Part shown: positions 12,176 through 14,610 of the stretch, in pieces
How positions within the stretch are numbered: the first letter of the stretch is position 1
Layout: each line of letters starts with the position of its first letter
Assembly (NCBI GenBank): GCA_014360645.1
Contig: JACIXD010000007.1
Coordinates: 62,001 to 126,000, forward strand
DNA length: 64,000 nucleotides
Direction of reading: 5' to 3'
Source: Actinomycetota bacterium
GTDB taxonomy: Bacteria > Actinomycetota > Geothermincolia > Geothermincolales > RBG-13-55-18
Notes under the pieces: generated by a model
Told to the model about the DNA's origin: nothing
Database searches by the model: none
The model's input: the letters and a program-made list of their open reading frames with translations, nothing else
Position numbers and translations under genes: made by a program

Positions 12176-13270
12176 TTACCGTGAGGCCAGGGAGCGCAGG
12201 TATTCGACCGCCTCCCTCAGGGTGGATACCCCGTGGAGCTCCATGTCCGTGGATATCCCGGCCAGATCATCCTGGTTTCCCAGGGGGTATATGAAGACCT
12301 CCGCTCCTTCGCTTTCCGCGGCGCGGATCTTCATGGGCAGGCCACCGATGGGCCCCACCCCGCCGTCCAGGGTTATCTCCCCCGTTCCGGCCACCTTTTT
12401 GCCCGCCGTGAGATCCAGGGGAGTGAGGGCATTGACCAGGGAGAGGGTCATCATCAACCCCGCGGAGGGGCCCCTGACCGTTTCCAGGTCCCAGTTCACC
12501 CTGACTCCGGTAGAGTAGGTGAAATAGTCCCTGATGGAGACGCCGATCACCCTGCGCTCCAGCGCAGGTTCGTATACCGGCACCATCTCCACCACCCGCT
12601 CCTCCTCCTGCAGGAGCGAAGCCAGGTCGGGCCTCTTCTCGCTGCCGTCGGTGGGCGCCTGCGCCGCCTCCTTTACCCTCTGCCCGTCAAGGGCCCTAAG
12701 GGTGAGGGCGACATTTTCCCCCTCCGGTGCCGCGTTGATGAGGGAATTGAGGCTTCCTCCGTCCGTGACCGGCTCGCCGTTCACAGCCACGATCACCTCT
12801 CCCGCCCGCACCAAGCCCTGGGCGGGATAGCCTCCGGCCACCGCCACCACCAGCGCCCCCATCCCCCACACCTCCACAGGGACGCCTACTTCCCGCAGGC
12901 CTGCCACGGTGGCGGTGTCCTGGCTCACGAAGGTGATGGCGGTATCCACGATATCCTGTACCTCGGTGTCCAGCTCATCCCCCAGGTAATCCCGCACCCT
13001 GATGACGTCCAGCCCGCCGTCAAAGAGGGAGAGCGCGCAGTCGATGAGGTTTGATTCCTGGATGGACACCGAGGTGAGCAGCAGCTCCCCCTCCGGCTTG
13101 AAGGTCTCGGCGCCCTCCACCTCCAGGTCCGCCTGGAGGTCGAAGGCCGGCCCGGGACTCTCCAGCAAAAACCCGGAGGGGACCACCATGACCATGAATG
13201 CCAGCGGCAGGAGCAGGGGCAGCGCCAGCCTGACCAGGGCAATGGGGTCACATCTTCGATCTTCGATCAC
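12176..13270 (-). CDS. PDZ and Lon-type (S16) serine protease, YlbL-like
   Basis: A 364-residue protein. An N-terminal membrane anchor (about residues 13-35, LVRLALPLLLPLAFMVMVV) is followed by the family's SPGPAFDL segment, a PDZ domain in the middle (GMGALVVAVAGGYPAQGLVRAGEVI) and a C-terminal Lon proteolytic domain. The catalytic Ser is in RGPSAGLMM. The catalytic Lys is in GLPMKIRAA, after GEITLDGGVGPIGG. This is the layout of YlbL/SdrC membrane proteases facing the extracytoplasmic side. GTG 13270 is the only start that keeps the anchor, but there is no good ribosome site. Codons 2-10 lie exactly in the left inverted repeat of a MITE-like element. Confidence 0.88.
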   Translation of the reverse strand: MIEDRRCDPIALVRLALPLLLPLAFMVMVVPSGFLLESPGPAFDLQADLEVEGAETFKPEGELLLTSVSIQESNLIDCALSLFDGGLDVIRVRDYLGDELDTEVQDIVDTAITFVSQDTATVAGLREVGVPVEVWGMGALVVAVAGGYPAQGLVRAGEVIVAVNGEPVTDGGSLNSLINAAPEGENVALTLRALDGQRVKEAAQAPTDGSEKRPDLASLLQEEERVVEMVPVYEPALERRVIGVSIRDYFTYSTGVRVNWDLETVRGPSAGLMMTLSLVNALTPLDLTAGKKVAGTGEITLDGGVGPIGGLPMKIRAAESEGAEVFIYPLGNQDDLAGISTDMELHGVSTLREAVEYLRSLASR

Positions 13271-13575
13271 AGATCCAAATAGTTCCTTGCTTTGATCTTC
13301 CCATGCGCTTCATCTCTTGCCGGGCCCCCAAGCAGCCTCGGCCCTCGACCACGATTCGCAAATCGCCAGAGATCCAAACGGACCCGGTCTCCGGTTACGA
13401 CACATCCATCATATTAAAAAACGATTATACGTCATCCGCCTTCTCTCACCCCGCGGCAAGGCCGGCACTCGAAACCCGGCCTCATCCAATGGGCCCGACA
13501 ACCTGATTCATGGACCCATCGGCAAGAAGCCCTTCCTCGAGCCCATACACCGAAGATCGAAGATCCGACCCCATT
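13241..13575. mobile_element. MITE-like element with 27-base terminal inverted repeats
   Basis: Bases 13241-13267 and 13549-13575 are reverse complements at 24 of 27 positions (core GAAGATCGAAGAT). The 281 bases between them encode nothing recognisable. There is no transposase, which fits a non-autonomous miniature element. The right end falls on the amrS stop codon; the left end lies in the coding start of the protease gene. No clear target-site duplication is visible. The element could simply be a long-range inverted repeat of other origin. Confidence 0.55.
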
Positions 13576-14561
13576 CACATCAGAACATCCGCTTGCCTGC
13601 CGCACTTGCCGCACCTGCCCTCCTCTATCCCTACCACGACGGCGCGGTAGCCGCGCCGGCTCACCAGGAGGTTGCCGCAGGAGGGACAGAGGGTGTCGGA
13701 CCCATCCCTGTCGACCACGTTCCCGAGATAGACGTAGTAGAGCTTTTCCCGCGCGATCTCCCTCGCCCGCAGCAGGGACTCCAGGGGCGTGGGCTCTACG
13801 GTCATCTTGTAGGATGGGAAATAGGCCGAGAAGTGCAGCGGGGTCTCCGGCCCCAGGGAGGCCACGAAATCCACCAGCTCGAGAAAGAGCTCGTCGGAGT
13901 CGTTGAGGGTGGGGATGACCAGGTTGGTCACCTCCACGTGTATGCCCGCCGCCTTCGCCGCCCGGCAGGTGGCTAGCACCGGCTCCAGCTTGGACTTGCA
14001 GATCCTACGGTAGAAGTCCGGGTCCATGGACTTCACGTCGATGTTCATGGCATCCACGTGGGGAGAGAGCTCCGCGAAGGGCGCGGGGTTGATGGAGCCG
14101 TTGGTGACCAGCACATTGACCAGTCCCTTTTCCCTCGCCAGTCGCGCGCACTCCAGCACGAACTCGTACCAGATGGTGGGCTCGTTGTAGGTGTACGCGA
14201 TGCCTACGGACCCGTGGGCCAGGGCCTCCTCCACCGCCTGTTCCGAGGAGATCTCGGCGGTACGGGCATCGGGCTGGAGCATGTGCCAGTTCTGGCAGAA
14301 GTCGCAGTGCTGGTTGCATCCCCGCGTGCCCAGGGAATAGATGGGCGAGCCGGGATAGAAATGGTAGAGGGGTTTTTTCTCTATGGGGTCCATGCTGCGG
14401 GCCATGGCGCGGTTGTAGACCTCCGAGTAGAGCACGCCGTCCACGTTCACCCGCACCTTGCAGAACCCCCTCCGGCCTTCCGCGATCACGCAATCCTGGG
14501 GACAGAGCAGGCAGTGCACCCTGCCCTCCTCCGCCTTCTCGTAATAAAGCGCCTCTTTCAT
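13575..14561 (-). CDS. amrS: AmmeMemoRadiSam system radical SAM enzyme
   Basis: A 328-residue radical SAM protein. An N-terminal Cys motif (CLLCPQDC, FCKVRVN) precedes the cluster motif CNQHCDFC near residue 90. YTYNEPTIWYEF, GLVNVLVTNGSI and MNIDVKSMDPDFYRRIC follow, all typical of the PflA-like AmrS group. A C-terminal zinc-ribbon-like part has CPSCG and CGKCGRQ. ATG 14561 follows AAGGAGG with ideal spacing. The usual AmrA and Memo partners are not in the window. It starts 49 bases after feoB on the same strand and could be cotranscribed. The substrate is not established in the family. Confidence 0.9.
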   Translation of the reverse strand: MKEALYYEKAEEGRVHCLLCPQDCVIAEGRRGFCKVRVNVDGVLYSEVYNRAMARSMDPIEKKPLYHFYPGSPIYSLGTRGCNQHCDFCQNWHMLQPDARTAEISSEQAVEEALAHGSVGIAYTYNEPTIWYEFVLECARLAREKGLVNVLVTNGSINPAPFAELSPHVDAMNIDVKSMDPDFYRRICKSKLEPVLATCRAAKAAGIHVEVTNLVIPTLNDSDELFLELVDFVASLGPETPLHFSAYFPSYKMTVEPTPLESLLRAREIAREKLYYVYLGNVVDRDGSDTLCPSCGNLLVSRRGYRAVVVGIEEGRCGKCGRQADVLM

Positions 14562-14610
14562 CGCCCCTCCTTTCACCCTCTCTATTCTACCCCGGGCCGG
14601 GACCCGGCTT

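Follow-up and report, generated by a model that had tools for sequence, protein, structure and literature searches.

At the junction between amrS and the gene for a PDZ-Lon membrane protease, two inverted copies of a short repeat stand where relatives carry the native start of the protease. We put the probability at roughly three in four that these two arms are copies of a terminal-repeat family spread by a Y1 transposase, that insertion removed the native start and tail of the protease and that the repeat now codes for its start. The window, which is the whole 64,000-nucleotide stretch of DNA analysed here, is part of contig C7 in a draft genome of 3.38 Mb.

Repeat arms at the amrS–protease junction

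Direct sequence comparison of positions 13241–13267 with 13549–13575 revealed inverted repeats that match at 24 of 27 bases (the first arm reads AATGGGGTCACATCTTCGATCTTCGAT and the reverse complement of the second AATGGGGTCGGATCTTCGATCTTCGGT), and a repeat search of the window reported the pair as a 25-nt core with 92% identity. The arm unit did not occur in shuffled windows, where 0.00 were expected. Read on the minus strand, 13270–13241 is GTG ATC GAA GAT CGA AGA TGT GAC CCC ATT, the start followed by I E D R R C D P I, and codons 2–10 of the protease are exactly the 13241–13267 arm. At the far side, the amrS stop TGA (13577–13575) has its last base in common with the outer base of the other arm. 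The sequence-only reading had described all of this, namely 27-base arms with 24 identities, one of them forming codons 2–10 right after the GTG and the other touching the amrS stop, and the comparison bears it out. It had also described the ribosome site as missing; the site is indeed weak, but it is not absent, as the best Shine-Dalgarno-like stretch for the GTG, an AAGGA, is present 13 nt upstream.

The GTG is the only in-frame ATG, GTG or TTG ahead of the transmembrane helix, and we infer that it is the start codon used, while a rarer codon, ATT or CTG, may provide an alternative. At least three further copies of the unit (two at L008, one at L038) are likewise followed by GATCAC, the hexamer that yields this GTG, and the protease start codon may therefore also have come with the repeat. 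If the repeat codons are translated, the N-terminal peptide of the protease would contain IEDRRCDPIALVR. Between the two units one promoter-like site was found, compared with 0.1 expected in shuffles.

Table 1. Coordinates of the features at the junction, as positions in the window.
Feature	Position	Strand	Basis
PDZ-Lon membrane protease, 364 aa, conserved part from residue 11	12176–13270	−	Lon_C PF05362, PDZ_6 PF17820, homology
Protease-side repeat unit, head GGGGTCAC; read backwards gives codons 2–10, IEDRRCDPI	13241–13267	+	Sequence, copy alignment
GTG (inferred start) with weak ribosome site	13268–13270	−	Sequence
Unique DNA between the two units	13268–13548		No match in genome, 19 relatives or other repeat loci
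Promoter-like site ATGACG-16-TATGAT, 9/12, aimed at protease	13408–13435	−	Consensus match only
amrS-side repeat unit, head GGGGTCGG, directly behind amrS stop	13549–13575	−	Repeat searches; position rule as in 21/91 copies
amrS (radical SAM), upstream operon member	13575–14576	−	ORF list; Radical_SAM PF04055, E 7.7e-24; adjacency to protease in relatives

Relatives keep a native protease start

All 14 relatives examined that gave a long match have amrS next to the protease gene on its upstream side, and several of them have an ATGA or GTGA in which the amrS stop and the protease start overlap. The proteases of these relatives have their own cytoplasmic tail ahead of the helix, which varies in length and sequence. 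For the same genus the sequence at the end of the tail is ...LGS-ALARLALPLLL, and the window protein reads MIEDRRCDPI-ALVRLALPLLL. Homology to the window protease sets in around residue 11 (residue 11 or 12 for the closest relatives); together with the native tails of the relatives, this places the repeat where the native start and tail were. The sequence comparison therefore shows that the native start and cytoplasmic tail of the protease are gone and that repeat codons stand in their place, in agreement with the earlier proposal that an insertion replaced the start region. The variability of the tail across relatives may explain why such a change was tolerated. Native tail and gene adjacency are thus recovered from the relatives, but the ancestral junction is blurred, as the distance from the amrS stop to the helix is 456 nt in G001 and 154 nt in G002, both of the same genus. 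With such spacers, part of the opening-up of the junction may predate the repeats.

The repeat codons could instead be a matter of annotation only, with translation starting downstream and the unit lying in the leader. Such an arrangement is reported for many REPs at apparent ORF N-termini in PMC3733652, and the same VIEDRRCDPI also occurs in an amidase at L038, where a plausible ATG follows it. In the protease, however, the next ordinary in-frame start after the GTG does not come until about codon 26, which falls within the hydrophobic helix (residues 10–30 by hydropathy peak), and homology to relatives already runs from residue 11; we regard this explanation as quite unlikely here. We also considered that the insertion disabled the gene and left a young pseudogene. 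The loss of translational coupling and of the native tail, along with the weak ribosome site, would fit this outcome, but the 354-residue protease body is an open frame with Lon_C and PDZ domains, and its comparison with G001 gives dN 0.14 and dS 0.86, a dN/dS of about 0.17, a ratio that is blind to very recent decay. By this measure the protease body is under purifying selection, and a pseudogene is very improbable.

A repeat family that favours gene ends

The ends of the pair recur across the genome, as a search for further copies found 125 matches with up to 3 mismatches to the 24–25-nt unit (T)GGGGTCRNATCTTCGATCTTCGAT, compared with 0 for a reversed-pattern control in the same 3.38-Mb genome. 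The copy alignment and the position and pair statistics cover the first 100 places listed of the 125, plus the loci examined. Alignment of 97 copies among the matches listed defined a sharply bounded GGGGTC(A/G)NATCTTCGATCTTCGAT, mostly with T before it and with little conservation outside the 24–25-nt unit. Inside the unit is a direct repeat of ATCTTCG, and the profile of the 97 listed copies contains no self-palindrome. Position 7 is A in 71 of the 97 copies listed, and most heads read GGGGTCAC or GGGGTCAG.

Neighbouring units among the matches listed favour a facing arrangement with the GGGG heads outward (18 facing pairs versus 3 opposite). Tight inverted pairs of 83–100 nt are numerous in both the genome of the window and its relatives, solo units are common in the genome, and facing pairs of 246–272 nt are also present among the matches listed. 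One 95-nt unit pair occurs twice in the genome and nearly identically in another MAG (L162), which is what composite copying would give. The L162 contig (JACIXY010000063.1, labelled Bacillota MAG-64) itself has two copies of this pair, and their near-identity to the actinobacterial ones points to a misbinned contig or a recent transfer. Exact repeat copies in public MAGs were found in Candidatus Solincola quzhuomuensis, a few other Actinomycetota and one genome labelled Bacillota, and the source of the window is therefore probably close to the Solincola lineage; searching with the protease gave no named relative.

The placement of the units relative to genes is strongly biased. Of the 91 listed units, 21 start no more than 15 nt behind a long-ORF stop, compared with about 5–6% at control positions (binomial p 3e-8), and by the same rule 3 of 91 listed units lie on the opposite side. 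The amrS-side unit of the window obeys this after-stop rule.

Many of the open reading frames across the units are spurious, and the analysis was restricted to cases with conserved genes. At L003, L019, L042 and L052 (G000), conserved-looking genes appear to end in unit-coded residues; examples, named by eye, are an SNF2-like helicase and a UspA-like protein. For the empty-site comparison at other loci L019 was used, and L027, which has many gene-family matches, was left out. At L019:1497-1596 a unit pair fills the spacer, with about 99 nt unmatched, and the corresponding G002:C14:31902-32290 has 387 nt of other DNA, so that the comparison yielded no exact empty site. From this junction, insertion may often accompany spacer replacement.

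Two units flanking unique DNA

The sequence-only reading had described the 335 bases as one MITE-like element. This stands for the ends, which belong to a mobile-type repeat with 125 copies, but not for a single 335-base body: the interior of the pair has no match elsewhere in the genome, in 19 relatives or at the other examined repeat loci, and a single MITE body was rejected on that ground. Given this unique interior and the 83–100 nt of the tight pairs, two units flanking unique DNA is a safer description than a 335-base MITE. Inspection by eye found no target-site duplication at the outer ends of the 335-nt pair or in the flanks of the listed tight pairs. We also set aside the idea that the interior is left over from the ancestral tail: its match to G002 (GAGATGAAG..CGCA.G.GGAAG) is short and of a strength that 6 of 200 shuffles also reached, and G001 yielded none.

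The amrS/protease junction might still have received a single non-autonomous element of 335 bases in one insertion, with an interior unique to this copy. Consistent with this, the arms are inverted in the favoured heads-outward arrangement, facing pairs of 246–272 nt exist, and the arms are predicted to pair in a single-strand fold. However, the interior lacks a second copy; among the 18 facing pairs in the matches listed, the window pair spans the greatest length, and the tight pairs measure 83–100 nt; and there are solo units, one of which can by itself replace a gene start. We therefore consider one 335-base element unlikely.

The sufficiency of a solo unit is seen in a second gene, a 4HBT-family thioesterase (G000:C6:48604-49053; L039:1510-1962). 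Its N-terminus reads MDVRSKIEDVTPG, the middle part of which comes from a solo unit; this unit is read in another frame than the protease unit, and the protein then joins the G001 sequence at VRGIIAAD. Neither G001 nor G002 has the unit-supplied N-terminus. As a solo unit suffices to make a new start in the thioesterase gene, this case favours two separate units at the protease locus, where the units presumably inserted separately, each as a solo unit, or as one pair of unusual length.

A candidate transposase for the repeat

Judging by proximity, a resident HUH transposase (Y1, IS200-like) probably spread the repeat. The partner enzyme is probably of this type, and not a DDE enzyme that works on the ends of a MITE. 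The candidate gene (C16:15890-16843), which has a Y1_Tnp match over the cut-off, lies inside one of the densest unit clusters and is flanked by inverted units, one of which ends ~30 nt before the ATG and the other of which overlaps the 3′ end. Its nearest homologue (72%) is in G009, the genome with the second-largest unit count among those searched, and a unit follows 2 nt behind the matched region. The other Y1 genes examined had no units within the flanks examined, and G006 has 29 units yet no Y1 homologue at E ≤ 1e-10.

The C16 frame (L060:1465-2421) runs into the repeat array, and its C-terminus is repeat-coded. In G001, the same-genus homologue of this unit-flanked Y1 gene (L125, G001:C61) has an internal TGA and the genome has only 10 units; whether the Y1/unit system of G001 is decaying is a question that these features raise.

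Proposed history and a possible switch

In the history that we favour, the ancestral protease would have started at or near the amrS stop and had a poorly conserved cytoplasmic tail. One unit would have inserted directly behind the amrS stop, the preferred landing place of the family, and a second, inverted unit at the start of the next gene, the protease. Insertion with loss or displacement of a stretch would have removed the native start and tail, so that the protease would now begin at the GTG on the inner edge of the repeat, read IEDRRCDPI and continue into the conserved transmembrane helix.

Folding models predict an effect of the arms on the protease start codon. In the modelled amrS read-through message the arms pair and codons 2–10 are almost completely buried (mean unpaired 0.04), and in a modelled message from near the interior promoter-like site these codons are more open (0.33); in this shorter modelled message the upstream ribosome-site region shows no such gain (0.27 versus 0.46). 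There is a slim chance that the arm pair is a switch, in which the read-through message hinders the protease start and an internally begun message without the stem allows the protease to be made. If so, the scar of a transposition would have given a coupled gene independent control.

Comparison with known repeat systems

The repeats belong with the RAYT/TIRYT-type repeats at gene edges, a known kind. The closest parallels are TIRtrons, in which genes for TIR-associated tyrosine transposases (TIRYT) are flanked by inverted terminal repeats, some of which have GGGGWSAS in common and are found singly, as dimers and in clusters, according to PMC3733652. Similarly, the C16 Y1/HUH gene is flanked by inverted units, and the heads GGGGTCAC and GGGGTCAG in the genome of the window fit GGGGWSAS, whereas the amrS-side GGGGTCGG has one mismatch to it, at position 7. 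The present lineage and the unit sequence do not appear in the available part of the TIRtron description.

REP/REPIN and RAYT systems (PMC2817692, PMC3116915) also comprise a short unit present about 100 times, inverted doublets of ~90 nt, a tyrosine transposase beside a cluster and landing near gene 3′ ends, a preference reported for REPs in PMC3733652 as well. The doublets can likewise form a hairpin at a preferred spacing, here 83–100 nt. Unlike REP/REPIN units, the present unit begins GGGGTC and lacks a GTAG/GTGG head and, in the 97 listed copies, a self-palindrome. Bacterial MITEs share the short, non-coding form and the inverted ends, but the window pair has no conserved body, no target-site duplication was seen and the probable partner transposase is HUH-type. 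For Rickettsia palindromic elements, PMC3733652 describes repeat DNA translated within conserved proteins, including at N-termini, and repeat DNA is read as part of a conserved protein here too. The present repeat has another sequence, however, and takes the place of a native start and tail rather than adding an internal stretch.

As REP-type repeats at or within gene ends are already published, the value of this case is that of a well-documented instance rather than a new principle. It adds a population of TIR/REP-type repeats from an uncultured lineage of actinobacteria, in which a tiny transposase-linked repeat would have opened a coupled operon and supplied a new protein start in a conserved gene.
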